This document shows, one piece after another, positions 1,673 through 25,690 of a stretch of 64,000 nucleotides of DNA. A program made the position numbers and the translations under genes. Source of the stretch: a virus. The notes under the pieces were generated by a model. The model was not told the origin of the DNA and made no database searches. It worked only from the letters and a program-made list of their open reading frames with translations. Positions within the stretch are counted from its first letter, which is position 1, and each line of letters begins with the position of its first letter. The stretch spans positions 62,001 to 126,000 of the IMG/VR virus record IMGVR_UViG_3300042691_036566. One strand, 5' to 3'.

Positions 1673-1914
1673 CAAAAGAAAAAGTATATCTAGGGAAGGT
1701 ATATAAGTTAAAGTCATTAGAGAACTATTCAGCAATTGCAACATTTCCAAGATACATGATATTAACACATAAAGTATATCGACAAAAAGAATATTATATG
1801 ACAATGTATAGATACTACGATATAGGTTATGCATCTGTATCGGGGAGACCTATAAGCGAGTATGATATCACATCGTTCTATAAGGTTATAGAAGAAGGTG
1901 AGTGGCAAGAATGA
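1669..1914 (+). CDS. KxGxIYK-family protein, array copy
   Basis: About 81 residues from ATG 1669; a TTG two codons upstream (1663) keeps the frame open but the ATGA overlap favours 1669. Signature is VYLGKVYKLK, with P-R-Y-M-I-L-T-H in the strand region and SFYKVIEEGEW at the end. Tyrosine-rich. Same operon logic as its neighbours; function unknown. Confidence 0.68.
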   Translation: MTKEKVYLGKVYKLKSLENYSAIATFPRYMILTHKVYRQKEYYMTMYRYYDIGYASVSGRPISEYDITSFYKVIEEGEWQE

Positions 1915-2183
1915 TTAAGCTTGGGAGGATATACAAAAGAAAACCAAGTAATAAAGCATCACCATATCCAGCTTACCTGATACCAACAGGTGTTAACCAG
2001 TTAATGACTACAGCGTTGCAAACAAGATACTATTATGTAGATGTAGAGAGGGAGAGAGATTATGGAAGTTATGAGTGTATAACGGAATCATCGCTGCAAT
2101 TGTTTTATGAGTTGGTTGAGGGGGGAATAGATAGGGGAATGGAGATAGGAGAGATACGGCATATCCTGCTGTATATAGGCTAA
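1911..2183 (+). CDS. KxGxIYK-family protein, last array copy
   Basis: About 90 residues from the ATG at 1911, which overlaps the previous stop; a GTG at 1902 is in frame but unnecessary. MIKLGRIYKRKPSN and Y-P-A-Y-L-I-P-T-G place it with the 1241 copy. After the usual LFYELVEGG end it carries about 20 extra residues, perhaps from loss of an earlier stop. It closes the array; about 280 bases without a clear gene follow. Confidence 0.65.
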   Translation: MIKLGRIYKRKPSNKASPYPAYLIPTGVNQLMTTALQTRYYYVDVERERDYGSYECITESSLQLFYELVEGGIDRGMEIGEIRHILLYIG

Positions 2184-2311
2184 TAGAAAAAAATGACATA
2201 AAAAAGGTATTTAGGTTATATATGGGCTGCTCGGATATGTCAATACAACCTGATGAATTTGCTATGTGGGAGTAGTATTCCACCAGTATAGCTCTACGCA
2301 TAGGGTGCCAC

Positions 2312-2367
2312 TATCCTACCGATATAGTAGGGGGTATAGGATAAGGCGCAAGTGTCTACTCTATCGG
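2312..2367. repeat. Interleaved inverted repeats in the 2184-2466 gap
   Basis: The gene-free stretch 2184-2466 holds nested dyads: TATCCTA (2312-2318) with TAGGATA (2337-2343), and CCGATATAGTAG (2319-2330) with CTACTCTATCGG (2356-2367, one mismatch). The two cannot form fully at once, so alternative folds are possible. No T-run follows, so it is not an obvious intrinsic terminator. It lies just upstream of a strong promoter, and a regulatory or terminator role is inference. Confidence 0.4.
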
Positions 2368-2384
2368 TGCAGTATAAAAAGGGG

Positions 2385-2413
2385 TTGACTTCACAATCAG
2401 CCCGTGATATAAT
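2385..2413 (+). promoter_or_regulatory. Strong sigma70-type promoter
   Basis: TTGACT (2385-2390), a 17-base spacer and TATAAT (2408-2413): near-perfect housekeeping consensus. It is placed to transcribe the small genes at 2467 and 2635. Such a promoter would be read by unmodified host RNA polymerase, as expected of an early phage region. Confidence 0.8.
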
Positions 2414-2466
2414 GCAAGATGCATTTGTGGTCCATATGGGTAACTTAACAATATAAAGGATATGCC

Positions 2467-2607
2467 GTGTATACCGTAAAGAACACTAAACCAACGCTAA
2501 CCGTAATTGTCGAAAGTGGGGAGAAAACAAAAAACAAAATCGTAAAGATCTATTATGATAACCTGGCAATTGAGATTGTAACCGATAAGCTAAATGGTGG
2601 ATATTAA
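2467..2607 (+). CDS. 46-residue hypothetical protein, GTG start
   Basis: GTG start with an AAGGA ribosome site six bases upstream, giving a 46-residue frame (VYTVKNTKPTLTVIVESG onward, ending KLNGGY). Beta-strand-rich composition; no recognised motif. It is the first gene after the strong promoter at 2385-2413, which is the main support for it. Confidence 0.5.
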   Translation: MYTVKNTKPTLTVIVESGEKTKNKIVKIYYDNLAIEIVTDKLNGGY

Positions 2608-2634
2608 AGGGCAGCTTTATAAGGGGATTTAAAC

Positions 2635-2823
2635 ATGGTATGCTATGTTCTGAAAACAGCAGATAAAGATAAAAGCAGACGCGAGTATGTACAAGCTATA
2701 TTAGCTTCAAATGATGAAGAAGCATGGACTATATCCCAGAATTATGTAAATCGTACAGGCAAGGAAGTTACTGTATATGTTAGTGAAATGTGCATGGGTA
2801 AACTAGTTCCAGCATATGCATGA
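2635..2823 (+). CDS. 62-residue hypothetical protein
   Basis: Starts at ATG 2635 with AAGGGG upstream. MVCYVLKTADKDKSRREYV, then a SNDEEAWTISQNYVN segment, resembles small phage proteins that convert or display per-residue 'Y-V-L-K' strands with a helix, but I do not recognise a family. Second gene from the 2385 promoter. About 485 bases of non-coding, GC-rich sequence follow. Confidence 0.6.
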   Translation: MVCYVLKTADKDKSRREYVQAILASNDEEAWTISQNYVNRTGKEVTVYVSEMCMGKLVPAYA

Positions 2824-2982
2824 TAAACCCTGTTACCTATATAGCTAGAAACTGATTACTTAGGATATCCCAGTATCAGAGAACACGGTTGGTGAAGTCC
2901 CTTACACAGTGTTCAACAGCAAACAGATATGCTGCGGGTGAATAAGGTAAACACACGCACTGCCAGTCAAACCGATTACACA

Positions 2983-3132
2983 GGCGGCTGGTTCTATCCG
3001 TAGTGTTTGATTCCCTGTCCACTTCACACAGGGTCGCTGGTGTGGGTGGGGAATCTGTGATAAACTACTGAGAGTGGCGAGTGTGGGCAAAGCCAGCCGC
3101 CTATATCCTACGGATAGAGTAAACCAGCCGCC
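2983..3132. repeat. Long inverted repeat in a GC-rich gap (2824-3309)
   Basis: The 2824-3309 gap has no convincing gene. GGCGGCTGGTTCTATCCGTAG (2983-3003) is the inverse of CTACGGATAG...AACCAGCCGCC (3108-3132), with a four-base insertion in the second arm. Inside lie CCCTGT/ACAGGG (3013-3032) and TATCCTACGGATA (3103-3115). The CCAGCCGCC and CTATCC/GGATAG elements recur in four other gaps of this region, so this is a repeat family, not chance. Likely a structured RNA or a protein-binding site; role unknown. Confidence 0.55.
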
Positions 3133-3183
3133 GTTTCACTCCTGGTGTCTCGAGGCTTCGCTGGTAGTGTGGGTGCCGCTTTG

Positions 3184-3288
3184 CTCTAACCATGTTGTTT
3201 CTTTGTGGGTCGATTCCACTCCTGGTCGCTTGTGGTTTTCTGTGGTTCTGGTACAATAGGTCTATAAGTTGATGAGGAATGAACCTCA
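3184..3288 (+). promoter_or_regulatory. Early promoter module 1 with leader hairpin
   Basis: First copy of a repeated module. It has an upstream box (CTCTAAC...TGTTT...GTGGGTCGATTCCACT...GTCGC), a weak -35 TTGTGG (3230-3235), 16 bases, and -10 TACAAT (3252-3257). The leader then has TGAGG-AATGAA-CCTCA (3273-3288), a hairpin just after the conserved 'TAAGTTGA'. A partial extra copy of the upstream box precedes it near 3134-3160. It would drive the gene at 3310. Confidence 0.65.
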
Positions 3289-3309
3289 CAATAAAGAAGG
3301 AATAAAACA

Positions 3310-3489
3310 ATGACAAACAATATCAAGATCGGAATGCGAATCTCGACGCGAATCAATGGAACTGGCATTGTTGTGAGCGGTTTTGGTGATCGCTGGATTG
3401 TCAAGTTTGACAATGATACTTGGGATGGTCCTGTTTATTCATGGAATATCTGGAGTGAAGATGGTAACACTCACAGTGACAGCTTCTAA
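3310..3489 (+). CDS. 59-residue SH3/KOW-like small protein
   Basis: ATG 3310 with GAAGGAA upstream; 59 residues. The sequence KIGMRISTRINGTGIVVSG followed by FGDRWIVKFDNDTW has the form of a small beta-barrel (IGxxV-xxxx-GxGxVV-xx-W-x-V-x-F-D). The same outline appears in the AT-rich genes at 9004, 11075 and 12800 here. Encoded alone behind its own promoter module and hairpin leader. A nucleic-acid or protein-binding barrel is plausible but inferred. Confidence 0.68.
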   Translation: MTNNIKIGMRISTRINGTGIVVSGFGDRWIVKFDNDTWDGPVYSWNIWSEDGNTHSDSF

Positions 3490-3591
3490 AGACCGAGTTT
3501 AATAGTGGGTTGAGTACACTGTCAGTCTCTGGTGTTCTGGCACGTCTTGCGGTATAATCGAACCTGTTCGATGGTTGGGAATGACCCCACC
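3487..3591 (+). promoter_or_regulatory. Early promoter module 2 with leader hairpin
   Basis: Upstream box CTAAAGACCGAGTTTAATAG then TGGGTTGAGTACACTGTCAG, followed by -10 TATAAT (3553-3558) without a good -35. The leader has GGTTGGG-AATGA-CCCCACC (3573-3591), a hairpin with one mismatch. It would drive the gene at 3613. The missing -35 with a perfect -10 suggests that the conserved upstream box is an activator site. Confidence 0.6.
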
Positions 3592-3612
3592 GGGAAACAA
3601 AAGGAAGAAAGA

Positions 3613-3804
3613 ATGACGATTCTCGAAACTTGGTACAATGATATCCTCGGTCACGCAAAGGCCAACTATGCGAATGGTTGGGATTTCTTTGTCGATTCTG
3701 TCGATATGGAACTCTTTGTTGAGGATATGCGGATTTTCTATGTCCGCGAGTATGAGGACGCTTTCAATCTCTACAATACGTGGGCAATGAACCGTCCCCG
3801 GTAG
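3613..3804 (+). CDS. 63-residue hypothetical protein
   Basis: ATG 3613 preceded by AAGGAAGAAAG; the frame is open further upstream but that part overlaps the promoter module. MTILETWYNDILGHAKANYA is helical, with many aromatic residues and acid groups (WDFFVDSVDMELFVEDM). No family recognised. Single gene behind promoter module 2. Confidence 0.6.
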   Translation: MTILETWYNDILGHAKANYANGWDFFVDSVDMELFVEDMRIFYVREYEDAFNLYNTWAMNRPR

Positions 3805-3829
3805 TGAAAGTGGGTTCACTCCCAGCTAC

Positions 3830-3943
3830 TCTAAAGAGCTGGTTTAGTAGTGGGTCGGGTTCACAGCTAGTCTCTGGACCCTCGGCGCGACCCATGATAG
3901 AATGTGTTGGTAAGGTTGACGCGCTGCAAGTGAAGCGGTCAAC
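3830..3943 (+). promoter_or_regulatory. Early promoter module 3, possibly for a short RNA
   Basis: Upstream box CTCTAAAGAGCTGGTTTAG plus GTGGGTCGGGTTCACAG, -10 TAGAAT (3898-3903), then TAAG and a long hairpin GTTGAC-G-CGCT (3915-3925) with AGCG-GTCAAC (3934-3943). No gene follows before module 4. The transcript would run into a T-run at 3971-3977, so a stable RNA of about 70-80 nt is possible. Alternatively it is the first of two tandem promoters for 4081. Confidence 0.55.
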
Positions 3944-3953
3944 ACAAAAGAGA

Positions 3954-4063
3954 AGGTTCTAAAGAGAGTGTTTTTTTGTTCTTGACCGCAGCGCGGTGCT
4001 GTGGTAGAATGTGCAGGTAAGGTTGAGAGGCAATAATGCCTCCAACAATGCGGGTTTCCCGCA
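3954..4063 (+). promoter_or_regulatory. Early promoter module 4 with two leader hairpins
   Basis: The best copy: TTGACC (3982-3987), 17 bases, TAGAAT (4005-4010), then GTGCAGGTAAGGTTGAGAG, identical to module 6. The leader folds as GTTG-A-GAGGCA-ATAA-TGCCTC-CAAC (4022-4046) and TGCGGG-TTT-CCCGCA (4049-4063), followed by AAGGAAAG before ATG 4081. Upstream of the -35 is GTTCTAAAGAGAGTGTTTT, shared with module 7. Leader hairpins may protect the mRNA or bind a regulator. Confidence 0.75.
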
Positions 4064-4080
4064 GAAAGTAAGGAAAGACA

Positions 4081-4467
4081 ATGGCTAAGGCTAATGGTAC
4101 GGTTTCGGCTTCTAAGATGGAGGCGATTGTTGCTTTCGTTCGGAAGTTCAACGCTAACGAGAATCGCGGTTGCCCGATGGGTGCAATCGAGTATGTTGGC
4201 GGATTCTCGAAGGCCGAGATTAAGGCCGCAAAGTCGAGCGGTAAGCTGGAATCCGGCAAGGGTTCGGAAGGTGGTTTCTTTGTTGCTGGTGCAAAGCCGG
4301 TTGCAAAGGGTCCGGTTGTGAAGGCAACCGTTAAGAATCAGATGGCTGCGTTTATGCGTATGCTGTCGGTTGGTCAGACGCTCGATGCGGATACCGTCGA
4401 GCAGGCAAAGGCGATTCTGCGTGATTACGACGCGCAGAACGCGAAGCGCCGCAAGTCGGACGACTAG
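4081..4467 (+). CDS. Winged-helix-like small basic protein A
   Basis: 128 residues; paralogue of the gene at 6472. Shared core: (I/V)xxFVRxFNAxxxRGCPxGAIEYVGGFSKxxIKxAKxxGxxxSxKGxxGGFF. The order helix - helix (FSKAEIKAAKSSG) - small hairpin (SGKGSEGGFF) looks like a winged helix, which would bind DNA. The C-terminal part is helical and ends in a basic tail (NAKRRKSDD). It follows the strongest promoter module and is followed by the same kind of nested hairpin as its paralogue. DNA binding is inferred from shape and charge. Confidence 0.7.
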   Translation: MAKANGTVSASKMEAIVAFVRKFNANENRGCPMGAIEYVGGFSKAEIKAAKSSGKLESGKGSEGGFFVAGAKPVAKGPVVKATVKNQMAAFMRMLSVGQTLDADTVEQAKAILRDYDAQNAKRRKSDD

Positions 4468-4472
4468 CATAT

Positions 4473-4519
4473 AACCCGGTTCCGGGGGCAAACCAGCCCC
4501 CGGCACGGCGCAACGGGTT
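4473..4519 (+). other. Nested intergenic hairpin, copy 1
   Basis: Outer arms AACCCG (4473-4478) and CGGGTT (4514-4519) enclose CCGGGGGC (4482-4489) with GCCCCCGG (4496-4503), loop AAACCA. The 3' single strand reads CACGGCGCAA before the outer arm. No T-run, so it is not a classical terminator. It sits between the stop of 4081 and the ribosome site of 4537. The same architecture follows the paralogue at 6472 and the gene at 6109. An RNA processing, stability or translation switch is inferred. Confidence 0.6.
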
Positions 4520-4536
4520 AATACTTAAAAGGAGAT

Positions 4537-4752
4537 ATGATGCAGACTTTCGGTTGTGCTACTTGTGGTGAAAAGACTTTTGCTCCATCTGCTGTGCTTT
4601 GCGAAACGCACGAGATGCAGGTGCTTGGTATTACTCGCGAGATGCTCGACGCTAATGATGGCGACGATGTTTTGCTCAATACTCGGCAGCTTTGGGATCA
4701 GTGGACAAACGAGAATCCTTGGTCAAACACTTTTAATGTGGAGCGTGGGTAA
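4537..4752 (+). CDS. Small protein with one Cys pair
   Basis: 71 residues (or 70 from the second ATG at 4540), with AAGGAGAT ribosome site. TFGCATCGEKTFAPSAVLCE contains C-x2-C and one more Cys, a possible half zinc ribbon, then an acidic helical C-terminus. The stop TAA overlaps the next ATG (TAATG). No family recognised; probably an early-region accessory protein. Confidence 0.6.
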   Translation: MMQTFGCATCGEKTFAPSAVLCETHEMQVLGITREMLDANDGDDVLLNTRQLWDQWTNENPWSNTFNVERG

Positions 4753-4964
4753 TGGACGTTTACGCGGTTTTGGATGTTGAAGCATATCAGGGCGAGCAGA
4801 CGGTTGCTCTTTTCTCGACGTATGAGAAGGCAAAGGCGTTTGTCGAGCGCAGGTATGACATGAGTGAATACAAGTACGACGGCGATTCTGCTTGGTTGTA
4901 CTTTGGACACGATACGTCCAGGATTGAGATTGCAACCGTCACGGTTGACGAAAGGGATGAATAA
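4752..4964 (+). CDS. 70-residue hypothetical protein
   Basis: Coupled to its neighbours by TAATG at both ends. MDVYAVLDVEAYQGEQTVAL then FSTYEKAKAFVERRY: a strand followed by a helix of the kind seen in small phage proteins that begin 'V-Y-x-V' and have a YEKAKAF helix. Acidic overall. Function unknown. Confidence 0.6.
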   Translation: MDVYAVLDVEAYQGEQTVALFSTYEKAKAFVERRYDMSEYKYDGDSAWLYFGHDTSRIEIATVTVDERDE

Positions 4965-5200
4965 TGACTCGCAAGGTAACAAACACGATTCTGGAGATGA
5001 TTGAGGATGGAATCCTCGACCGTGACACGGTAATCAATGCGTGCCTCAAGTATATGTCCGAGGACGACGTTGCGGATATGGCACACGCAAACGAGTTTAT
5101 TGTCGAGGACGAGGAAACCCTCGATGATGATACCGAGGAAGAGGAAGATGATACTGATCCCAATGCGGATTGGTATGATACAAGCAACGAGTTCCTCTAA
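4964..5200 (+). CDS. Highly acidic 78-residue protein
   Basis: Third gene of the 4537-5200 operon, starting at a TAATG overlap. An N-terminal helical part (ILEMIEDGILDRDTVINACL) is followed by a stretch of Asp and Glu (EEEEDDTDPNADW). Such tails occur in DNA mimics and in inhibitors that compete for nucleic acid sites, but also in inert linkers. Function unknown; about 420 bases of regulatory sequence follow. Confidence 0.6.
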   Translation: MTRKVTNTILEMIEDGILDRDTVINACLKYMSEDDVADMAHANEFIVEDEETLDDDTEEEEDDTDPNADWYDTSNEFL

Positions 5201-5251
5201 CGCTAGAGCCTCGATGATAGTTAGTTCTATCAATAGAGGCGGGGGCTGGCA

Positions 5252-5293
5252 CTCTATCCCAAGTGTTAAATGTTGGATATTCTAGGGATAGAG
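5252..5293. repeat. CTCTATCCC / GGGATAGAG inverted repeat
   Basis: A perfect 9-base dyad (5252-5260 and 5285-5293) in the 5201-5619 gap. It is flanked on the left by GGCGGGGGCTGGC and on the right by GCCCGCCGCCGCCC, a degenerate version of the GGCGG...CCAGCCGCC arms seen elsewhere. It follows the last stop of the acidic-protein operon. Probably a member of the same structured element family as 2983-3132. Confidence 0.5.
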
Positions 5294-5333
5294 GTTGCCC
5301 GCCGCCGCCCATGTGTCCAGAAGTTAACTCTAA

Positions 5334-5400
5334 CGATGTTGTTTTAAAGTGGGTCAATCTCACTCTCAGTCTCTTCCGTTCTCGACCGACTTGGTGTAAT
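5334..5400 (+). promoter_or_regulatory. Early promoter module 5 (degenerate)
   Basis: The upstream box is clear: CTCTAACGATGTTGTTTTAA then AGTGGGTCAATCTCACTCTCAGTCTCTTCC. The core promoter is weak (TGTAAT or TAATAT near 5395-5402). No gene follows before module 6, so like module 3 it may make a short RNA that ends at the hairpin 5452-5466, or it may be an auxiliary binding site. Confidence 0.45.
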
Positions 5401-5451
5401 ATACACACATCATCGACGCGCTGGTGGATGCACGAAAGGCCCCAGCCGCCG

Positions 5452-5466
5452 CTATCCTTGGGATAG
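5452..5466. repeat. CTATCC-TT-GGGATAG hairpin preceded by CCAGCCGCC
   Basis: A compact hairpin (CTATCC 5452-5457, GGATAG 5461-5466) directly after CCAGCCGCCG. This is the shortest copy of the CCAGCCGCC plus CTATCC/GGATAG element found in several gaps between 2.9 and 6.9 kb. It lies between modules 5 and 6 and could end a short transcript from module 5. Confidence 0.45.
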
Positions 5467-5485
5467 TACTAAACTCGGATCTTTG

Positions 5486-5599
5486 CTCTAACTGTCGAGT
5501 TTAATAGTGGGTCGGTTTTACTGACAGTCGCTTCCAAGGCATGGGGTCTTGTGGTAGAATGTGCAGGTAAGGTTGAGAGAGGGAATGGTCCCTCCCAAC
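5486..5599 (+). promoter_or_regulatory. Early promoter module 6 with leader hairpin
   Basis: Upstream box CTCTAACTGTCGAGTTTAAT plus AGTGGGTCGGTTTTACTGACAG, weak -35 TTCCAA, -10 TAGAAT (5555-5560), and a start region identical to module 4 (GTGCAGGTAAGGTTGAGAG). Leader hairpin: GTTG (5572-5575), GAGGGA-ATGG-TCCCTC (5579-5594), CAAC (5596-5599). The stem bases differ from module 4 but pair equally well, so the structure is conserved by compensating changes. Confidence 0.7.
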
Positions 5600-5619
5600 A
5601 ATAAGGAATGAGGAATCAA

Positions 5620-5991
5620 ATGACGGTTGAGACTATGACGCAGAACGAGATTGAAACTCTGGTGAATGAGATTCGTAACACGATCCAGACTATGCGTAAG
5701 GCTCGACTGCTTACGCGAAACGCGATCATGTCGCACATTGGCAAGAACAATGCCGTGCTGCGTCGTGAGGGTGAAAAGCTCAACGCTCTGGGTTTTGAGC
5801 TTGGTGATACCCGCGAGACTCGCAAGTTGCTTATCTGGAATGAGTATCTGGGTATGGAACTTGAGCGTCAGACTGGAATCCCCGCTGAAATGCGGAAGTC
5901 AGCCGCCGTTACTGCTAAGGCAAACGGTATCACTCGGATCAAGGCAAGCAACGTCAATGCAACCACCGCTTTCCTCATGGGTAAGCGGTAA
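5620..5991 (+). CDS. Helical 123-residue hypothetical protein
   Basis: I prefer ATG 5620 (MTVETMTQNEIE) because GAGGA lies at the right distance; an ATG at 5608 is in frame but has its ribosome site too close. Long amphipathic helices (EIETLVNEIRNTIQTMRKARLL) and a basic, Arg-rich middle. No enzyme motif. First gene behind module 6, followed by two tiny genes in the same operon. Confidence 0.62.
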   Translation: MTVETMTQNEIETLVNEIRNTIQTMRKARLLTRNAIMSHIGKNNAVLRREGEKLNALGFELGDTRETRKLLIWNEYLGMELERQTGIPAEMRKSAAVTAKANGITRIKASNVNATTAFLMGKR

Positions 5992-6004
5992 GAAAGGAAA
6001 GAGC

Positions 6005-6106
6005 ATGGAAGATATGATTATCGTGCAAATGGTCTGCATTGGGATTGCCAGCCTCTCGCTGGGATTTGTTTTCGGACTTTCAATCAACCTCAAGATCAAG
6101 GAGTAG
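6005..6106 (+). CDS. 33-residue single-span membrane peptide
   Basis: ATG 6005 with AAGGAAAGAGC upstream. The peptide is nearly all one hydrophobic helix (IIVQMVCIGIASLSLGFVFGL) with a short basic end (KIKE). Next gene starts three bases after the stop. It joins five other tiny membrane peptides in this region; a role in host membrane modification is inferred only. Confidence 0.6.
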   Translation: MEDMIIVQMVCIGIASLSLGFVFGLSINLKIKE

Positions 6107-6108
6107 GA

Positions 6109-6285
6109 ATGAAGGATTTCAAGCGTGGTGTCGAGGGAATGAAGAACGAGCGTTGGACCATTCACGTCAAGATTGATGGTCACACGATTGCTCGCGGAAA
6201 GCGCGGGGTTCGCAAGTGGGTCCGCGACCTCAAGCGTATGTATCACCGCGAGATGCGTCGAGTGAAGTTCGACGCTGAGACATAG
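6109..6285 (+). CDS. 58-residue basic protein
   Basis: ATG 6109, GAGTAGGA just upstream. Strongly basic (GKRGVRKWVRDLKRMYHREM), suggesting nucleic-acid binding. It starts with a strand-like WTIHVKIDGHTIARG part and ends in a helix. No family recognised. A nested hairpin begins just after the stop. Confidence 0.6.
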   Translation: MKDFKRGVEGMKNERWTIHVKIDGHTIARGKRGVRKWVRDLKRMYHREMRRVKFDAET

Positions 6286-6289
6286 AAGG

Positions 6290-6329
6290 TTCGCTGGCGG
6301 TGAAATCCAGCCGCCCAAGGCGCAGCGAA
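6290..6329 (+). other. Nested intergenic hairpin, copy 2
   Basis: Outer arms TTCGCTG (6290-6296) and CAGCGAA (6323-6329) enclose GCGG (6297-6300) and CCGC (6311-6314), with CCAGCCGCC on the 3' side and CAAGGCG in the 3' strand. This is the same architecture as 4473-4519 and 6848-6891 with different outer bases. It directly precedes the GTTCTAAGG of promoter module 7. Confidence 0.55.
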
Positions 6330-6330
6330 A

Positions 6331-6452
6331 GTTCTAAGGTGAGTGTTTCTTTGTACTGGACTTCACAACCCGGTCGTGGTACACTCTGTCCTGTAAGTTG
6401 GTGAGAGGGAATGGTTCCCTTGAACCTATCACTCAAAGACGGTTTGACCGTC
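6331..6452 (+). promoter_or_regulatory. Early promoter module 7 with two leader hairpins
   Basis: GTTCTAAGGTGAGTGTTTCTTT matches module 4. -35 TGGACT (6357-6362), 17 bases, -10 TACACT (6380-6385). Leader: AGGGAA-TGG-TTCCCT (6406-6420) and GACGG-TTTGA-CCGTC (6438-6452), then AAGGAA before the start at 6472. Modules 4 and 7 both drive the winged-helix-like paralogues, so gene and promoter were probably duplicated together. Confidence 0.65.
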
Positions 6453-6471
6453 AGAAGGAATGGGAAATAAA

Positions 6472-6837
6472 ATGGCTACCTCTATCGTTGAGTTCGTTCG
6501 TGCTTTCAATGCCAAGGAGGGTCGTGGTTGCCCTGTTGGTGCGATTGAGTACGTCGGTGGATTCTCGAAGAAGGACATTAAGACCGCTAAGGATAAGGGT
6601 CAGATTGTTTCGACTAAGGGAACCGATGGTGGTTTCTTCCCTGCTGGTGAGGTTGTTAAGACTTCTAAGGCTAAGGTGAAGGATTCTCTCAAGGCCGATA
6701 TGGTCGCTTTCATCACGGCAGTTGCTAATGGCAACGGTGATGCAAAGATGGTTGAGACTGCTCATGCTCTGGTTGCTCGGTATAACGCCGAGTGCGAGAA
6801 GAAGAAGGTTGCTGCTTCTAATCGCAAGACCAAGTAG
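6472..6837 (+). CDS. Winged-helix-like small basic protein B
   Basis: 121 residues from ATG 6472; an in-frame ATG at 6460 abuts the ribosome site. Paralogue of 4081: FVRAFNAKEGRGCPVGAIEY, VGGFSKKDIKTAKDKG and STKGTDGGFF line up directly. The C-terminal helix region is less conserved and ends in a basic tail (KKKVAASNRKTK). It has the same promoter type and the same following hairpin as copy A. DNA binding inferred, perhaps as an early regulator. Confidence 0.7.
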   Translation: MATSIVEFVRAFNAKEGRGCPVGAIEYVGGFSKKDIKTAKDKGQIVSTKGTDGGFFPAGEVVKTSKAKVKDSLKADMVAFITAVANGNGDAKMVETAHALVARYNAECEKKKVAASNRKTK

Positions 6838-6847
6838 CAAACAAACT

Positions 6848-6891
6848 AACCCGTTCGGGCGGTTTCCAGCCGCCCGCATGGCGCAACGGGT
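6848..6891 (+). other. Nested intergenic hairpin, copy 3
   Basis: Outer ACCCGTT (6849-6855) with AACGGGT (6885-6891); inner CGGGCGG (6856-6862) with CCGCCCG (6870-6876); loop TTTCCAG. The 3' strand CATGGCGCAACGGGT is almost identical to copy 1. It follows the stop of the winged-helix-like gene B and precedes the ribosome site of 6914, exactly as copy 1 follows gene A. Confidence 0.6.
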
Positions 6892-6913
6892 AACTGGAAA
6901 AAAGGAGAAAGTA

Positions 6914-7081
6914 ATGCGAATCGTAGCACTGAGTGACGGCACTTGGGATATCTGTGCGGACATTGTTACACTCTCGGACGATCAATATGAGCGTTTGACA
7001 AGTGGTGAAGTGACAATCGCAGATCTGTATGAGGAAGGCATCGAGGCGGAAGTTATTCAAACCTTTAATCGGGAGCAGTAA
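6914..7081 (+). CDS. 55-residue acidic hypothetical protein
   Basis: ATG 6914 with AAAGGAGAAAG upstream. MRIVALSDGTWDICADIVTL then SDDQYERLTSGEVTIADLYE; resembles small phage proteins with an 'S-D-D-Q-Y-E-R-L' helix. Next gene begins two bases after the stop. Function unknown. Confidence 0.62.
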   Translation: MRIVALSDGTWDICADIVTLSDDQYERLTSGEVTIADLYEEGIEAEVIQTFNREQ

Positions 7082-7082
7082 A

Positions 7083-7286
7083 ATGACGAAGCATGAGAAG
7101 CTAGAAAAGGCGAAGGTTGACCACAAGTACGCGATTGCTCGCATCGAGGAGCTGGAGCGTGAACTTACAAAGCAGCGCACGATTGCAAGTGATCGACTGC
7201 ATTCGCTGCGTAAGCTGGACCCCAAGACATATGGGGAAATCAAGAAGGGTTATGTTGATTGGTATACCCTTTCGCGTTCGGAGTAA
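7083..7286 (+). CDS. 67-residue coiled-coil protein
   Basis: ATG 7083, immediately after the previous stop. The first ~40 residues (KLEKAKVDHKYAIARIEELE) have heptad spacing typical of a coiled coil; the end is YVDWYTLSRSE. Function unknown. Confidence 0.6.
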   Translation: MTKHEKLEKAKVDHKYAIARIEELERELTKQRTIASDRLHSLRKLDPKTYGEIKKGYVDWYTLSRSE

Positions 7287-7294
7287 CTAAGGAA

Positions 7295-7429
7295 ATGAAG
7301 CGTGTGCTAGCCGCCGTTTTGGCGGTTGTAACCCTAACAAACTGTGTAGCAGAAAAGGAGTGCAAGGTGAGCGAAAAGGATTGCGTTGCTCTCTGGTATA
7401 TGATGCTTGATAAGAATGCGAGGCGATGA
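7295..7429 (+). CDS. 44-residue lipoprotein
   Basis: ATG 7295, AAGGAA upstream. MKRVLAAVLAVVTLTNC is a clear lipoprotein signal peptide with the lipobox L-T-N-C; the mature part is only about 28 residues and carries two further Cys. It is the first of a chain of tiny overlapping membrane genes (7295-7689). Its size is in the range of Rz1-type outer-membrane spanins, but proline richness is absent and no endolysin is adjacent, so I do not assign a lysis role. Confidence 0.62.
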   Translation: MKRVLAAVLAVVTLTNCVAEKECKVSEKDCVALWYMMLDKNARR

Positions 7430-7521
7430 TGGCAGGTGTACTGATTGCGTCAATGATGCTTGGAGTTAGCTGGGCGTTTGGCAAGATGGTTTATAAGGCA
7501 ATCGAGGTGCCGCGTGATTAA
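7426..7521 (+). CDS. 31-residue single-span membrane peptide
   Basis: ATGATG at 7426 overlaps the lipoprotein stop. One hydrophobic helix (GVLIASMMLGVSWAFG) and a short polar end (KAIEVPRD). The GTG of the next peptide lies inside its last codons. Support comes from the unbroken overlap chain and the hydrophobic pattern. Confidence 0.5.
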   Translation: MMAGVLIASMMLGVSWAFGKMVYKAIEVPRD

Positions 7522-7615
7522 TAAGGAAGTTGTTATCGAGGCTTTGACTGCGGTTGGTTTGGCAGCTGTAGTGGTTGCTGCGTTCTGGGTTGTTTACATT
7601 TTTGAACTGGGGTAG
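7514..7615 (+). CDS. 33-residue single-span membrane peptide, GTG start
   Basis: GTG 7514 inside the end of the previous peptide. VINKEVVIEALTAV followed by a hydrophobic helix (LAAVVVAAFWVVYIF). The next start follows two bases after the stop. A weak ribosome site suggests translation by coupling. Confidence 0.45.
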   Translation: MINKEVVIEALTAVGLAAVVVAAFWVVYIFELG

Positions 7616-7617
7616 AT

Positions 7618-7689
7618 ATGATCGCGTTGACAGTCTGGTTTGCGGTAGTTGCTTTGATCGTAGGAGTTACCACGGAGGTAGTAGGGTAA
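7618..7689 (+). CDS. 23-residue hydrophobic peptide
   Basis: ATG 7618 to TAA 7689: MIALTVWFAVVALIVGVTTE and three more residues, essentially one membrane helix. Its stop shares a base with the next ATG (TAATG). On its own this would be too short to call; the four-gene overlap chain is the reason to keep it. Confidence 0.4.
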   Translation: MIALTVWFAVVALIVGVTTEVVG

Positions 7690-7832
7690 TGGGGGATGAT
7701 CAGATAAGCTATAGCAAGGAGCGGGGTCAATGTGATACCTGTGCTAGATTCACCTGGGTACTCACTCAGTACCTGGGTGGGTGTATTGTTGCACGGTACT
7801 GTAAGCGGTGCGAACCAAAGGAGATGGACTAA
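7689..7832 (+). CDS. 47-residue zinc-ribbon-like protein
   Basis: ATG 7689 at a TAATG overlap. Two Cys pairs, C-D-T-C and C-K-R-C, separated by a strand-rich stretch containing one further Cys, form a likely four-Cys zinc ribbon. The stop overlaps the next start (TAATG at 7830-7834). Function unknown. Confidence 0.55.
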   Translation: MGDDQISYSKERGQCDTCARFTWVLTQYLGGCIVARYCKRCEPKEMD

Positions 7833-8215
7833 TGAGTGCAAAGGCGCAACACTTGTTTGACACGGCAAAGATTCAGCTGGTTAGACTCAACGAGGATTGG
7901 AGTTTGAGTGGTGATACTTTTTGTCACCAGACTGCCTCGATCATTCGATCAGCTGTGTGGAGTGATCGCGATGAGTATCAAAATGTTTACAGCTTGCAGC
8001 GTGCTGTTGCACATCTAGCTAGACGCTTTGCAGACTATACTGATCCCGACAGCGGTCCATGCAATACTGTTGAGCAGAGCAACGAGATTGCTCGGTGGTC
8101 TAATACGTTTGCAGCTGCATCGGATACGGTTAGTTTGCTTGAGGATACTTTGCCTGATAAGCAGCGTGAACTCTTAGCAAATGAAACAATGAGCTTCTAT
8201 CGACAGCTGTTTTAA
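7832..8215 (+). CDS. 127-residue helical hypothetical protein
   Basis: ATG 7832 with AAAGGAGATGG upstream. Mostly alpha-helical (AQHLFDTAKIQLVRLNEDWS, then QRAVAHLARRFADYT), mildly acidic, no motif I recognise. It is the last gene of the GC-richer early block; base composition drops sharply after it. Confidence 0.62.
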   Translation: MSAKAQHLFDTAKIQLVRLNEDWSLSGDTFCHQTASIIRSAVWSDRDEYQNVYSLQRAVAHLARRFADYTDPDSGPCNTVEQSNEIARWSNTFAAASDTVSLLEDTLPDKQRELLANETMSFYRQLF

Positions 8216-8245
8216 TGTTATTGCTATCGCTAAAAAACTTCTAGG

Positions 8246-8275
8246 GGTAGAAGGGGGACTTCCCCTCCCCCTACC
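8246..8275. terminator. GC-rich hairpin closing the early block (gap 8216-8438)
   Basis: AGGGGGA (8252-8258) pairs with TCCCCCT (8266-8272) and GGT (8246-8248) with ACC (8273-8275). No T-run follows, so termination is uncertain. The rest of the gap holds a TATAAT-like box at 8327-8332 and a small AT hairpin near 8369-8389 (TTGAAACT / AGTTTTCAA), the likely promoter and leader area for the AT-rich genes beginning at 8439. Confidence 0.45.
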
Positions 8276-8438
8276 CTCATGGTGGTATATATACGGAAAG
8301 TATGTCTACCGTGATTACTATTTTCATATAATAACGCGCCTAGGTCAAAAATATATCGCGGGTCATTTTTTGAAACTTTTTAGTTTTCAATTAACTACTT
8401 ACTGGTAAACTGTACCACAGAAAAATGGGGAAAAAAAC

Positions 8439-18481: not shown

Positions 18482-18857
18482 AGATAAGTTTTCTATAGTT
18501 AAAAAACTTAGAGAAGAAAATAAAAGTAATGATATATTTGAAATAATGTTATCAAACTTAACATTTGAAGAAATAATTGCTCTTAAATTAGAGTTAGTAA
18601 GTAAATCTGTAGGAAGTAATTTATACGGCTTACCATTATGGAGATCATTAAGTTTTATTGTAAAAGACGCAATGCTAAGATATGCATTAGCATCAACTCA
18701 ATCTAAAACAAAAGCAATTCAATTTTTAGGACTAGATAGTAAAACATTTTATCGTTATCTAACTAATTATGGTTTAAGGGACTATTTTAATGATCCCAAA
18801 GGAAACGATAATAATGAGTCTAATAACAGAGGATCAACTAAAAAAGATTTATCCTAA
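18459..18857 (+). CDS. Fis-type helix-turn-helix protein
   Basis: 132 residues from ATG 18459. The N-terminus is basic (AKKAAPRDKFSIVKKLREEN). The C-terminal region SKTKAIQFLGLDSKTFYRYL is a Fis/NtrC-type helix-turn-helix. T4-like phages of marine bacteria carry similar proteins of unknown role. It overlaps the 18197 gene by 23 bases and the endolysin by 44 bases. Probably DNA-binding. Confidence 0.68.
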   Translation: MAKKAAPRDKFSIVKKLREENKSNDIFEIMLSNLTFEEIIALKLELVSKSVGSNLYGLPLWRSLSFIVKDAMLRYALASTQSKTKAIQFLGLDSKTFYRYLTNYGLRDYFNDPKGNDNNESNNRGSTKKDLS

Positions 18858-19392
18858 TTGCAAACCTGATAAAATAAAATATTATACTGAAGCCTTTAAT
18901 AAAGTATGGCCTACATTTAATATCAATACACCAAAACGTATTGCAGCTTTTTTAGGACAAGTAGCAGTAGAGTCTGGAGAGTTAAAATATGATAAAGAAC
19001 TTCCTTCTAAATGGAATAAAAAAGATCCAAAAAACCCAAATGAACCTACTGGAACTTTGTACGAGGGTCGCAAAAACTTGGGAAATACAACACCTGGAGA
19101 TGGCCCAAAGTTTATTGGGCGCGGCGTTCTTCAATTAACAGGTAGAGCAAATTACGATTCGTATGGTAAAAAACTAGGAATTGATTTAATCGGAAATCCA
19201 GAACTAGCAGCAACACCAGAAGTTTCTGTAAAAATAGCTTGTCAATATTTTAAAGATCGTTCGCTACTAAAATTTGCTGATGATTGGAATCTTGACGAAG
19301 TTACTAAAAGAGTAAATGGAACAGCTAAATTGCATCACGATCAAAGAGTAATTTATTCAGAAAGGGCATTAAAAGTTCTATCAGCTGGTTAG
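18814..19392 (+). CDS. GH19 chitinase-like endolysin
   Basis: 192 residues from ATG 18814 with AAAGGAAAC upstream. Typical GH19 endolysin motifs: IAAFLGQVAVESGEL with the catalytic Glu, YEGRKNLGNTTPGDGPKFIG and FIGRGVLQLTGRANY. It cleaves peptidoglycan at lysis. No signal peptide, so it would need a holin; the 72-residue membrane protein that follows is a candidate. Length and motifs agree with complete enzymes. Confidence 0.9.
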   Translation: MSLITEDQLKKIYPNCKPDKIKYYTEAFNKVWPTFNINTPKRIAAFLGQVAVESGELKYDKELPSKWNKKDPKNPNEPTGTLYEGRKNLGNTTPGDGPKFIGRGVLQLTGRANYDSYGKKLGIDLIGNPELAATPEVSVKIACQYFKDRSLLKFADDWNLDEVTKRVNGTAKLHHDQRVIYSERALKVLSAG

Positions 19393-19405: not shown

Positions 19406-19624
19406 ATGGATGATGGTATAAGTAATAAAAAAATTAGTATAAATTTAGTTATATTTTTATCTTATTTTTTGCTAATGATGTTAATAATTGGTGTTATTAA
19501 ATGTGATTCTAATAAAATTGAAAAACATTTAGATGAATGTAGAGAAATTTGTAAACCTAAAGATATTATAGAGACATTCTCTAAAAAGAAATGTCTCTGC
19601 AAAGAACCTATAGAAATAGAATAA
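19406..19624 (+). CDS. Small membrane protein, possible lysis partner
   Basis: 72 residues. A basic start (SNKKISINLVIFLSYFLLMM) leads into one membrane helix, then a Cys-rich polar part (CDSNKIEKHLDECREICKPK, ending KCLCKEPIEIE) likely on the periplasmic side. Position directly after the endolysin suggests a holin, inner-membrane spanin or anti-holin, but no family is recognised. Confidence 0.55.
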   Translation: MDDGISNKKISINLVIFLSYFLLMMLIIGVIKCDSNKIEKHLDECREICKPKDIIETFSKKKCLCKEPIEIE

Positions 19625-19632
19625 AAAAGTTC

Positions 19633-19661
19633 TTGACGCTGCTATTTTAGCGCGCTATAAT
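19633..19661 (+). promoter_or_regulatory. tmRNA promoter
   Basis: TTGACG (19633-19638), 17 bases, TATAAT (19656-19661); initiation about 19668, seven bases before the tmRNA 5' end at 19675. A consensus host-type promoter, so the RNA should be made by host polymerase. Confidence 0.85.
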
Positions 19662-19674
19662 AGGTGCGTAATTT

Positions 19675-19963
19675 GGGGATGACTTGGTTTCGACAAAGGT
19701 AACTAAAAACAAAATGCAGGAAGTCTGCGAACAGCTACAGACTTTAATAAACGGTTCAACAACACAAAAGCCAACGATGACGTTGACTCTGAATTCTACG
19801 CCCTAGCTGCGTAATTCTTGGGCTGGCAACTTGCCTCGAAACAGAAAAGTTGCAATTTTGTTTTAAACTGTAATAAATTGTAATATCTTGTAAGATAATC
19901 CTGTGTATCATTTTGTAGAATACGTATTTTTGGACCGGGGTTCGACTCCCCGCATCTCCACCA
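19675..19963 (+). ncRNA. ssrA: tmRNA (phage-encoded)
   Basis: 5' GGGGATG (19675-19681) pairs with CATCTCC near the 3' end, forming the acceptor stem; the 3' end is encoded as CCA (19961-19963). GGGGATGACTTGGTTTCGAC is the usual tmRNA start and CGGGGTTCGACTCCCCG the T-arm. The tag frame 19770-19814 reads ANDDVDSEFYALAA then TAA. About 289 nt; shorter than most bacterial tmRNAs (~350). tmRNA frees stalled ribosomes with SmpB and tags the product for ClpXP-type proteases through its ALAA end. No smpB is seen here, so the host protein would be used. Confidence 0.93.
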
Positions 19964-19976
19964 AATTTTATACTAT

Positions 19977-20028
19977 CCCGTCAGAGTTTATATTTTACAG
20001 GATTTTTTCCTGTTGACGGGAGTTTTTT
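19977..20028 (+). terminator. tmRNA terminator overlapping the next promoter
   Basis: CCCGTCA (19977-19983) with TGACGGG (20014-20020), inner ACAGG/CCTGT (19997-20001, 20009-20013), then T6 at 20023-20028. The 3' arm contains TTGACG, the -35 box of the next promoter, so one stretch of DNA serves both ends. Confidence 0.8.
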
Positions 20029-20041
20029 GCCGTGGTATTAT
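20013..20041 (+). promoter_or_regulatory. Promoter for the 20077/ClpP-like genes
   Basis: TTGACG (20013-20018), 17 bases, TATTAT (20036-20041). The -35 lies within the terminator stem of the tmRNA. It would transcribe 20077-21343, including the ClpP-like protease. Confidence 0.8.
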
Positions 20042-20076
20042 ACTCAAACAATGGCCGCTGTGCCGAGGAGACAATC

Positions 20077-20340
20077 GTGACTGTTACTAAGGATGAAGTG
20101 AAGAATGGTGATTCATGGACGAATGTACGTTATTTTTCAAGCTTTGAGGAAGCTGATGCAATGCGTAAGTCACTACGGTCACAAGACCGTGCTGGTATGA
20201 TGCAATTTAAAGTAAAACGTTGCGGTGAGGGTGGAACCCTGTTTGTTGTTAAGTCTCGTATTGATCAAAATGCTAAAGCTGAGTTAGAAGCTCTAGAAGA
20301 AAAAATGTTTAGCAAGAAAAACAAGAAGAACAACAAATAA
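20077..20340 (+). CDS. Basic-tailed small protein between tmRNA and ClpP-like gene
   Basis: 87 residues from GTG 20077 with GAGGAG six bases upstream; the frame is open to GTG 20032, but that lies in the -10 box. SWTNVRYFSSFEEADAMRKS then FKVKRCGEGGTLFVVKSR form an alpha/beta unit, with an acidic helix and a Lys/Asn tail (SKKNKKNNK). No family recognised. Between a tmRNA and a ClpP-like gene, an adaptor or RNA-binding role can be imagined but nothing shows it. Confidence 0.65.
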   Translation: MTVTKDEVKNGDSWTNVRYFSSFEEADAMRKSLRSQDRAGMMQFKVKRCGEGGTLFVVKSRIDQNAKAELEALEEKMFSKKNKKNNK

Positions 20341-20352
20341 TAGGGATAAAAA

Positions 20353-20946
20353 ATGAAATATATTCTTAATGCAAATCCAAAATTAGATGAAGACTCAGTT
20401 GATGAGTCTAGCGATGTAGAAGATAACGATAATAATATTTATTTCTATGCTGGAGTTTCGAAGAAGTCAATTTTTGAACTAAATAAAAAAATCGCTTCAA
20501 CGTCAAAAGCTCTAGTCCTTACTGGAATTGAGCTAGATATTCCAACACCAGAAATCAAACTACACATTAATAGCGGTGGTGGAAGTTTGCTAGACTGTTT
20601 TTCTGCAATTGACTACATTAGAAACAGTAAAGCCCCAGTGCATTCTATTATTGAGGGTCATGCAGCTTCTGCTGCAACGCTTATGAGTGTTGTTGCAAAA
20701 AAGCGTTCAATTACAAAACATTCTGTTATGCTTATTCATCAACTATCTGCCGGTATGTGGGGTAAATTTGAGAGTATGAAAGACGAAATTGAAAATGCAA
20801 CAATGTTCATGAATACAATCAATGAAATTTATACAAAATATACAAAAATACCAAAAAGTGTCTTAAAAGAAATTTTAAAACGTGATATATATATGGATGC
20901 AAAAACTTGTCTCAAGTATGGTCTTGTAGATAAGATTATGGAATAA
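20353..20946 (+). CDS. ClpP-like serine protease
   Basis: 197 residues. The ClpP triad can be placed: EGHAASAATL (S106), MLIHQLSAGMWG (H129) and KRDIYMDAKTCLKYGLVD (D178). HINSGGGSLLDCFSAIDYI matches the substrate-binding strand before the active site. Length is close to the 190-210 of bacterial ClpP. The N-terminal 30 residues are acidic and unlike cellular ClpP. Phages use such proteases either for prohead processing or host protein turnover; position beside tmRNA favours turnover, but head maturation cannot be excluded. Confidence 0.9.
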   Translation: MKYILNANPKLDEDSVDESSDVEDNDNNIYFYAGVSKKSIFELNKKIASTSKALVLTGIELDIPTPEIKLHINSGGGSLLDCFSAIDYIRNSKAPVHSIIEGHAASAATLMSVVAKKRSITKHSVMLIHQLSAGMWGKFESMKDEIENATMFMNTINEIYTKYTKIPKSVLKEILKRDIYMDAKTCLKYGLVDKIME

Positions 20947-20948
20947 AC

Positions 20949-21161
20949 ATGAAAAAAATTGTCTTTTTATCTTCACTATTACTAGTTAGTTGCCTAAAAG
21001 AAGAGCAAAATACCTTAAGTGTGAAGGAGTGTGATCCATATTCCGTTCAATGTCTGGAAAGAATAAGCAAAAATGTCTGCCCAGACCCAGAAACAAGAGA
21101 GTTTGACTTCCTCGCAGAGGAAGTAATGGAAACAATTAACTATAACAAAGGATGCAAATAA
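20949..21161 (+). CDS. Cys-rich lipoprotein
   Basis: 70 residues, starting two bases after the protease stop. MKKIVFLSSLLLVSC is a lipoprotein signal with lipobox L-V-S-C; the mature part has several Cys (ECDPYSVQCLERISKNVCPD). Likely anchored to a host membrane. Function unknown; superinfection exclusion or lysis are possible roles for such phage lipoproteins. Confidence 0.68.
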   Translation: MKKIVFLSSLLLVSCLKEEQNTLSVKECDPYSVQCLERISKNVCPDPETREFDFLAEEVMETINYNKGCK

Positions 21162-21344: not shown

Positions 21345-21419
21345 GCGGGTGTAGTTCAGTGGTAGAACTCTAGTCTTCCAAACTAGATGTCGTCGGTTCA
21401 AATCCGTCCACCCGCTCCA
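21345..21419 (+). tRNA. tRNA-Gly (TCC)
   Basis: Acceptor GCGGGTG pairs with CACCCGC; discriminator T, CCA encoded at 21417-21419. Anticodon stem CTAGT/ACTAG with loop CTTCCAA gives anticodon TCC, reading GGA/GGG. T-arm GTCGGTTCAAATCCGTC-type. GGA is a common glycine codon in the AT-rich phage genes here, which would explain keeping this tRNA. Confidence 0.93.
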
Positions 21420-21977: not shown

Positions 21978-22051
21978 GGGCTGGTAAGCTAATGGTAAAC
22001 TGCCGCCTTTGCACGGCGGTCTTGTGGGTTCGATTCCCACTCGGTCCACCA
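21978..22051 (+). tRNA. tRNA-Ala (TGC)
   Basis: Acceptor GGGCTGG pairs with TCGGTCC (three G-U pairs), discriminator A, encoded CCA 22049-22051. Anticodon stem CCGCC/GGCGG, loop TTTGCAC, anticodon TGC reading GCA/GCG/GCT. T-arm GTGGGTTCGATTCCCAC. GCA and GCT are the favoured alanine codons in these AT-rich genes. Confidence 0.9.
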
Positions 22052-24355: not shown

Positions 24356-25690
24356 ATGGCAAAAAAATCAAAAAAAGTTTATGTAATTGATACAAATGTT
24401 TTTTTAAGCGACTTTAATGCAGTATATGCATTTCAAGATAATGATATAGTGGTGCCACTAAAAGTCCTAGAAGAAATCGATAAACACAAAAAACGTCAAG
24501 ACGGAGTTGGCGCAAATGCTCGTCAAGTAATTCGTATTTTTGATGGTCTAAGAGAAAAAGGACAGCTAGACAAAGGTGTTAAAATTGGTAGTCGTAAAGG
24601 CACACTTACTGTAGTAAACTATGGTAAGAGTTTACTCCCTGCAGAAATGTCTATGCAAGATCCAGATAATCAAATTCTTGCTACTGTATTATCCGTTATG
24701 TCGGAAGAAGAGAATATTCCAGCTACCAGCCGCCCTGTGTATCTAGTTTCACAAGATATTAACATGCGAGTTAAAGCAGATGCCCTTGGTATTCTTGCAC
24801 AAGATTATACAACAAATAAAATTGTTGAGATGAAAGAAGAGATTTATACTGGATTTACCTCTCATCTTGTTGACGATCATCTTGTTGATCGTTTTTATAA
24901 CGGAGAAAAAATCTTCCTAGAAGAAAAAGACATCAAGTTACACCCAAATCAGTATGTAATGCTTGTATCAAATGCCAACGAAAAGAAAACCGCCCTATGC
25001 AAGTTCCGTAATTATAACTTTGCATTAACAAAAGTTCGGGAATTTAAGGAAGGCGTATGGGATGTGCGTGCAAAAAACAAAGAGCAACAATTTGCTTTTG
25101 ATCTTCTAATGGATGATAATGTTAAAATAGTGTCTCTTGTAGGTCTTGCTGGGTGTGGTAAGACACTTATTGCTCTTGCATCAGCACTAGAGCAAACTCT
25201 AGCGTCTACAACATATAAGAAAATAATTGTATCCCGTCCAGTGCAACCGATGGGTCGTGATATTGGTTTCTTGCCAGGAACATTAGAAGAAAAAATGGCT
25301 CCTTGGGTTGCTCCAATCCAAGATAACCTTGAGTTCCTTATGGGTGATGATAAAGAGCATCTACAAATGCTTCAAGAAAAGGGTACAATTGAAGTAGAAG
25401 CTCTTACATTTATTCGTGGACGCTCTATTGCAAACGCATTTATTATCATTGATGAAGCGCAGAACTTAACAATGCACGAATTAAAGACTATAATTACAAG
25501 AGTTGGTGAAAATACTAAAATTGTTTTAACAGGTGATATTGAACAGATTGATAGTGCTTTTCTTGATGCGACTAACAATGGTTTAACTTATGCTGTTGAA
25601 AAATTTAAACCATTCGAGCTAACAGGTCATATAACATTGCAAAAAGGTGAACGTTCTGCAGTTGCTACACTAGCTGCATCAGTATTATAG
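24356..25690 (+). CDS. phoH: PIN-PhoH ATPase/RNA helicase-nuclease
   Basis: 444 residues. N-terminal PIN domain: YVIDTNVFLSD with the first metal Asp (D12), then PLKVLEEIDKHK and further acidic residues. C-terminal PhoH domain: Walker A GLAGCGKT at ~263-270, PVQPMGRDIGFLPG, and IIIDEAQNL (Walker B). This PhoH2 layout couples a nuclease to an ATPase and occurs in bacteria and phages. Phage phoH is common in marine phages; RNA turnover during infection is the likely role. Confidence 0.92.
   Translation: MAKKSKKVYVIDTNVFLSDFNAVYAFQDNDIVVPLKVLEEIDKHKKRQDGVGANARQVIRIFDGLREKGQLDKGVKIGSRKGTLTVVNYGKSLLPAEMSMQDPDNQILATVLSVMSEEENIPATSRPVYLVSQDINMRVKADALGILAQDYTTNKIVEMKEEIYTGFTSHLVDDHLVDRFYNGEKIFLEEKDIKLHPNQYVMLVSNANEKKTALCKFRNYNFALTKVREFKEGVWDVRAKNKEQQFAFDLLMDDNVKIVSLVGLAGCGKTLIALASALEQTLASTTYKKIIVSRPVQPMGRDIGFLPGTLEEKMAPWVAPIQDNLEFLMGDDKEHLQMLQEKGTIEVEALTFIRGRSIANAFIIIDEAQNLTMHELKTIITRVGENTKIVLTGDIEQIDSAFLDATNNGLTYAVEKFKPFELTGHITLQKGERSAVATLAASVL

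Follow-up and report, generated by a model that had tools for sequence, protein, structure and literature searches.

Although tmRNA genes occur in a few percent of phages, their benefit to the phage has not been established. At the locus analyzed here, a tmRNA gene lies one small gene away from a gene for a ClpP-like protease, which raises the question whether the two form a true tag-and-degrade pair. In such a pair, the tmRNA would tag the products of stalled ribosomes, and the phage ClpP, working on host ClpX/ClpA or on a phage AAA+ protein, would destroy them and so increase recycling while host mRNA is being broken down. The stretch of DNA that was analyzed, here called the window, comprises 64,000 nucleotides and is part of a 187,450-base contig from a large freshwater phage. 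Its relevant features, all on the plus strand, are the following:

18814-19392, +, GH19 chitinase-type endolysin, upstream gene (Pfam Glyco_hydro_19, PHROG endolysin, neighbour census)
19406-19624, +, 72-aa protein, N-terminal stretch hydrophobic, perhaps belonging to a lysis cassette (ORF list; without family match)
19633-19661, +, sigma-70-like tmRNA promoter, TTGACG-17-TATAAT, 11/12 consensus bases (promoter scan)
19675-19963, +, one-piece tmRNA with encoded CCA (ARAGORN, Rfam, clade structure alignment)
19770-19814, +, tag reading frame plus stop (ARAGORN; ALAA end kept, synonymous codon changes)
20007-20022, +, terminator-like hairpin followed by a T run (scan)
20013-20041, +, sigma-70-like promoter, small gene-ClpP operon; TTGACG-17-TATTAT, second hexamer preceded by TG, overlaps the hairpin (scan)
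20077-20340, +, 87-aa basic-tailed protein, conserved directly 5' of the ClpP-like gene (ORF list, relatives' loci, AF2)
20353-20946, +, free-standing ClpP-like (S14) protease, triad Ser106/His129/Asp178 (Pfam, PHROG, alignment, AF2/Foldseek, tree)
20949-21161, +, 70-aa lipoprotein-like small protein (ORF list; marginal PHROG matches only)
21345-21419, +, tRNA-Gly (tcc) (ARAGORN, Rfam)
21978-22051, +, tRNA-Ala (tgc) (ARAGORN, Rfam)
24356-25690, +, PIN-PhoH protein, recurrent downstream neighbour in the clade (Pfam, PHROG, relatives' loci)

The tmRNA gene and its tag

ARAGORN identified the tmRNA gene with the tag ANDDVDSEFYALAA. The Rfam model RF00023 matched the same interval with 97.2 bits (gathering score 47, E 1.1e-36) and was spanned completely (1-374 of 374). 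A tmRNA with encoded CCA and tag, as proposed earlier from the sequence alone, was thus borne out by both programs, including the covariance-model search. Six tmRNAs of the window's clade, 68-90% identical to one another, shared a common fold of 65 pairs, and compensatory changes occurred in 20 of these. The G3·U70 wobble that confers alanine identity was present in 6/6 (alignment columns 3-295), and all six ended in ACCA. Judged by these features, the phage tmRNA is a working-looking ribosome-rescue RNA for trans-translation. We suppose that it would be charged by the host alanyl-tRNA synthetase and delivered by host SmpB and EF-Tu, and that it would free ribosomes stalled on broken mRNA.

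The last four tag residues were Ala-Leu-Ala-Ala in 10/10 distinct tag sequences of the window's clade, while their codons varied synonymously (GCC/GCT/GCA, CTA/TTA/CTC, GCT/GCA/GCG, GCG/GCT). Because the residues are fixed while the codons change, the comparison indicates that the ALAA end is under selection at the level of the encoded peptide, and hence on tagging itself. Among the permuted tmRNAs of other phages described below, alanine occupied three of the four end positions in 57/57, 56/57 and 57/57 tags; these 57 had been preselected for ending in A-[LIMV]-[AV]-A, so that only their synonymous codon variation, which was equally free, is informative. In E. coli, ALAA ends are recognized by ClpX/ClpA. 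Degradation tagging, beyond ribosome release, has apparently been kept by selection during infection in this clade. The added tag would lead to destruction by host ClpXP/ClpAP; peptide-level selection on ALAA also speaks for a tag-and-degrade pair that includes the phage protease.

The two transcription units had been thought to touch, with the 3' arm of the tmRNA terminator serving as the -35 box of the protease promoter. The overlap exists, but of the six -35 bases only the last two fall in the 3' arm of the hairpin (6 bp in the scan), the first four forming its loop; an alternative longer stem (CCCGTCA...TGACGGG) can be drawn. The tmRNA/small-gene junction was read directly in four relatives, which had either other DNA or no tmRNA. 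The overlap is therefore a local feature, and it was dropped as a signal of coupling.

A ClpP-like protease with a small partner gene

The 197-aa product of the protease gene matched Pfam CLP_protease with 97 bits (E 1.6e-27). Its catalytic triad was invariant across 18 aligned relatives, and Foldseek matched its AF2 model (pLDDT 85) to solved ClpPs with a probability of 1.00 and a TM of about 0.75. Family, fold and triad all agree with the initial description of a ClpP-like protease with an intact Ser-His-Asp triad, one small gene away from the tmRNA; the gap between tmRNA and protease gene is 389 nt. Judging by the triad, the product is probably an active S14 peptidase. It shares fold, triad and the Arg170-Asp171 equivalents with bacterial ClpP (E. 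coli, T. thermophilus), but is only about 25% identical to canonical ClpP, has an unrelated acidic N-terminus and differs at the docking-cleft positions.

The cleft was compared at the E. coli ClpP positions which we take, from ADEP and ClpXP structures, to form the ClpX/ADEP site; the equivalent residues come from a sequence alignment rather than from a complex. The Tyr62 equivalent was His across the window's clade (Tyr in one relative), that of Met92 was Glu or Asp, that of Phe112 was variable, and that of Leu114 was Ser, Thr, His or Asn, so that, by alignment, the hydrophobic character of the ClpX docking cleft is not kept in this clade. Since the cleft positions are altered in the whole clade, canonical docking of the phage ClpP onto host ClpX is unlikely, which argues against a tag-and-degrade pair. 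In another group (A6/s230, see below), nearly every ClpP is hydrophobic at the residues equivalent to 62, 90 and 92 of the E. coli protein, a point in favour of such a pair.

An altered cleft in a protein of canonical fold, with the Arg170/Asp171 equivalents kept in most of the clade, might also mean interference with the host Clp system, which the ClpP-like protein would block or retune by forming mixed rings with host ClpP that do not dock ClpX, sparing phage proteins from proteolysis by the host. We think this improbable: the invariant catalytic triad would be needless in a pure poison subunit, and mixed rings are uncertain at an identity of about 25% to canonical ClpP.

The 87-aa gene was found directly 5' of the ClpP gene in 9/9 close relatives of freshwater type (window included), at a distance of 7-14 bp, but a tmRNA stood upstream of the pair in only 6/9. 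These close relatives came exclusively from uncultivated viral contigs; the isolate phages searched contained neither a close DNA relative of the region nor a relative of the 87-aa protein. The linkage of tmRNA, small gene and protease suggested by the sequence-only reading is therefore real and complete for the two protein genes, and partial for the tmRNA, which is missing in 3/9. The unit is the pair of small gene and ClpP, and the tmRNA is optional. ClpP was kept without a tmRNA at loci L010, L047 and L050, and L056 and L060 had no tmRNA nearby. The loss at L010 (9200-9280) was clean: only the acceptor end CTCCACCA was left beside the endolysin, with both protein genes intact.

The 87-aa protein had been regarded as the natural adaptor. 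Because it remains with ClpP when the tmRNA is lost, a role as tmRNA/SmpB adaptor is not supported and was rejected. Its predicted structure is a small alpha/beta protein (pLDDT 75) with neither sequence nor fold similarity to a known adaptor of the ClpS/SspB type. PHROG gave no match, Pfam only a sub-threshold SPOR match (19.5 bits versus 21), and a PDB fold search with the model no match with E below 0.36. A phage ClpP family that is free-standing, shows a changed ClpX cleft and comes with a conserved small-protein partner is a new, testable part.

Prohead processing had been put forward as the main alternative role of the protease. The best PHROG match, and the closest PHROG family by score, is phrog_94, labelled head maturation protease; these S14 proteases share the ClpP fold and the catalytic residues, and many phage S14 matches sit between portal and capsid genes. 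The gene of the window, however, is free-standing and far from head genes. One end of the contig carries a terminase, a T4-type portal (106 bits) and, adjoining the portal, a gp21-type peptidase S77 prohead protease, and the opposite end carries a gp23-type capsid gene, consistent with one head module split by the contig ends. About 74 kb of the contig separate the S77 gene from the ClpP-like gene, which sits amid the endolysin, small membrane-type or lipoprotein-like ORFs and two tRNA genes; it is neither located in the head module nor the only protease available to it. Because of the S77 protease in the head module and this distant, different neighbourhood, the ClpP-like protein is not the canonical prohead protease. 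A phylogenetic tree also gave it no firm placement among head ClpPs, and a role in head maturation is very improbable.

The same surroundings suggest that the protease might belong to a late lysis-associated set (endolysin, cell-wall hydrolase, lipoproteins) and serve in lysis or in the turnover of envelope proteins. Around the gene are the GH19 endolysin and membrane-type and lipoprotein-like small ORFs, and cell-wall hydrolases (PF07486) are encoded about 0.5 kb upstream of ClpP in 31/45 tmRNA-positive representative loci. Yet neither a signal peptide nor a membrane segment is evident in the ClpP-like sequence, the gene has its own promoter of the sigma-70 type, which is no sign of late expression, and a neighbourhood by itself is weak evidence. 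We therefore regard this role as unlikely.

No SmpB was detected in the phage or in the contigs of two relatives, which may be fragments, and no ClpX-type AAA_2 ATPase scored above the cut-off in contigs G001, G003 and G004. The notion that tmRNA and protease form a self-contained module was rejected on these grounds, and the same two results weigh against a tag-and-degrade pair in general. The phage does encode a stand-alone AAA_5 protein that could serve such a pair as a motor.

The phage also encodes a GroEL-type chaperonin (PF00118; L030:12974-14548).

Recurrence of the neighbourhood and a control sample

In more distant relatives, with ClpPs 48-52% identical to that of the window, the tmRNA stood on the same strand 1.1 kb upstream, on the opposite strand at 3.3 kb, or at a distance of about 40 kb. 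Further phages were found by a scan for tmRNA 3' ends that was independent of ClpP. It identified phages with permuted two-piece tmRNAs about 0.3-2.5 kb from a free-standing ClpP-like gene, and the Rfam beta_tmRNA and permuted models confirmed six such RNAs. In one clade, A6, 46/47 loci with enough upstream sequence had a tmRNA 1.4-3 kb upstream of the protease. No tRNA gene was found at these loci, so a tRNA-cluster slot does not explain the A6 clade. A second set of proteases had a tmRNA upstream in 15/21, and a third, distinct ClpP-like family had one in 15/33, sometimes just 4-130 nt upstream. When the proteases were clustered at 85%, 45 of the 82 clusters had a tmRNA within 4 kb and 17 had none with both flanks read; the other 20 cannot be judged.

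The tree separated the window's clade, the A6/s230 group and the s232 group as three strongly supported clusters, whereas the order of the three and the placement of the window's clade relative to head ClpPs lacked firm support. The protease does not group firmly with prohead proteases, and its linkage to a tmRNA is present in relatives, so that the refuting outcomes named in the sequence-only reading did not occur. Three divergent clades of ClpP-like proteins showed proximity of tmRNA and ClpP, and the tmRNAs concerned were of the one-piece as well as the permuted type; these recurrent neighbourhoods are a new pattern.

The loci with a permuted tmRNA 4-130 nt 5' of the protease are L360, L367, L370, L372, L375, L383, L388, L391 and L395. 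A large tRNA cluster adjoins most loci of this kind.

As a control, the same region was sampled by way of a PD-(D/E)XK nuclease gene beside the tmRNA slot, in other T4-like phages with permuted tmRNAs; this control covers permuted-tmRNA phages, not the window's own clade. Among 34 dereplicated loci with enough sequence, 3 had both tmRNA and ClpP, 13 the tmRNA only, 2 ClpP only and 16 neither (one-sided Fisher p = 0.44 for association, with just 5 ClpP-positive loci). The tmRNA stood without ClpP in 13/16 tmRNA-positive loci, and about half of the control phages had a tmRNA regardless of ClpP. The same fraction was seen when the ClpP-bearing clusters of the permuted clades were combined (22/44 with at least 3.9 kb upstream). 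Since tmRNA and ClpP showed no association in this unconditional sample with its few ClpP-positive loci, a shared accessory slot probably explains much of their proximity in permuted-tmRNA phages. The control also weakened a strong claim of coupling based on recurrent linkage such as the 46/47 loci of one clade. The GH19 endolysin is among the very few non-ClpP families found near the tmRNA both in the window's clade and in permuted-tmRNA phages.

The explanation that we favour, with a probability of about 0.55, is that two functional, separately regulated proteostasis tools occupy a common accessory slot next to the endolysin gene and a pair of tRNA genes. Next to the rescue RNA, the 87-aa gene and the ClpP-like gene would form their own two-gene operon; its protease would be an S14 peptidase rather than a gp21-type head protease, and would probably not dock host ClpX in the canonical way. 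The biochemical steps, the use of host factors and the targets of the protease are what we infer. Against separate tools speak the recurrence of the proximity across three clades of ClpP-like proteins, with tmRNAs of two structural types, and the 46/47 loci of the A6 clade, where no tRNA gene was found.

The recurrence also speaks for a tag-and-degrade pair, as do the tmRNAs 4-130 nt 5' of ClpP at several loci of one clade. The earlier idea that the two parts act together nevertheless lost ground with the altered ClpX docking cleft and with the missing tmRNA-ClpP dependence in the control from another phage group. Each partner is also kept without the other, ClpP at L010, L047 and L050 and the tmRNA in most tmRNA-positive control loci. 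Weighing both sides, we consider a true pair rather doubtful. We are equally hesitant about a related possibility, that unrelated phage lineages independently paired a tmRNA with a ClpP-like peptidase as a salvage pair whose motor is non-canonical or lacking altogether. If this were true, ribosomes would be freed from phage-cut host mRNA and the tagged products digested. The PhoH-PIN gene on which the argument about mRNA breakdown drew is real (Pfam). Should the neighbours cooperate, phages would have their own way of salvaging wrecked translation.

Known phage systems and further observations

Phage tmRNAs and phage ClpP-like proteins are each already known. Complete tmRNAs like that of the window have been described in Bxz1-type mycobacteriophages, Wildcat, Bacillus phage G, Stenotrophomonas phage Marzo and the methylophage Melnitz (PMC4131195, PMC8928761, PMC9004378). 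In one survey, 402 tmRNA-bearing phages were counted among 18,146 genomes, given as 2.3%, and tagging of host proteins for recycling by phage tmRNA has already been proposed (PMC9004378). What sets the window's phage apart from these is the ClpP-like gene 389 nt from the tmRNA. A word search found no mention of Clp or ClpP in PMC7162821, PMC8928761 and PMC9004378. No report of a local tmRNA-ClpP neighbourhood was found in the accessible parts of the open-licence literature, and the titles and abstracts retrieved for tmRNA, bacteriophage and ClpP were not about this linkage. Huge phages also carry ribosome-rescue genes, and some bring SmpB (PMC7162821), unlike the window's phage, in which none was detected; neither "Clp" nor "protease" occurs in the text of that paper.

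Bacillus phage G, whose tmRNA is on record (PMC4131195), resembles the window's phage in having both a tmRNA and a ClpP-like protease (gp257). The latter lies beside its own ClpX-like protein:

Phage G 184871-191362 (locus L484), ClpP-like/ClpX-like pair gp257/gp258

No ClpX-type ATPase was detected in the window's phage. The tmRNA of phage G, at 412 kb, is about 222 kb from this pair, whereas that of the window is adjacent to its protease. Unlike the window's clade, gp257 keeps Tyr62, Met/Ile at 90/92 and Leu114. The pair gp257/gp258 is a useful reference.

Several minor observations concern the surroundings of the tmRNA. At L008 (8566-9445), an HNH endonuclease gene follows a tmRNA with a different T arm, and downstream of the HNH gene the window-type tmRNA 3' end is duplicated over 20 nt (GACTCCCCGCATCTCCACCA), which marks a mobile or homing element that uses the tmRNA 3' end. 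In permuted-tmRNA phages, a GroES-type gene (PF00166) can directly adjoin the tmRNA (L229:2553-2816). At about 900-8400 of the window, few long sense-strand ORFs are listed, and several of the long ORFs there run antisense or seem spurious.

The space between tmRNA and small gene contains, in relatives, about 350 conserved noncoding bases that include a promoter-like sequence of their own:

L009:9268-9631, conserved noncoding stretch
L010:9269-9631, conserved noncoding stretch
L011:7179-7514, conserved noncoding stretch
L048:5278-5614, conserved noncoding stretch

Rfam gave no match for the L009 copy, and the single-sequence fold was not better than that of shuffled sequences (z -1.07). The stretch is possibly an undescribed phage RNA. 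A diverged copy lies among the tRNA genes of the window's phage, at about C1:50359-50709 (L022:10359-10709).
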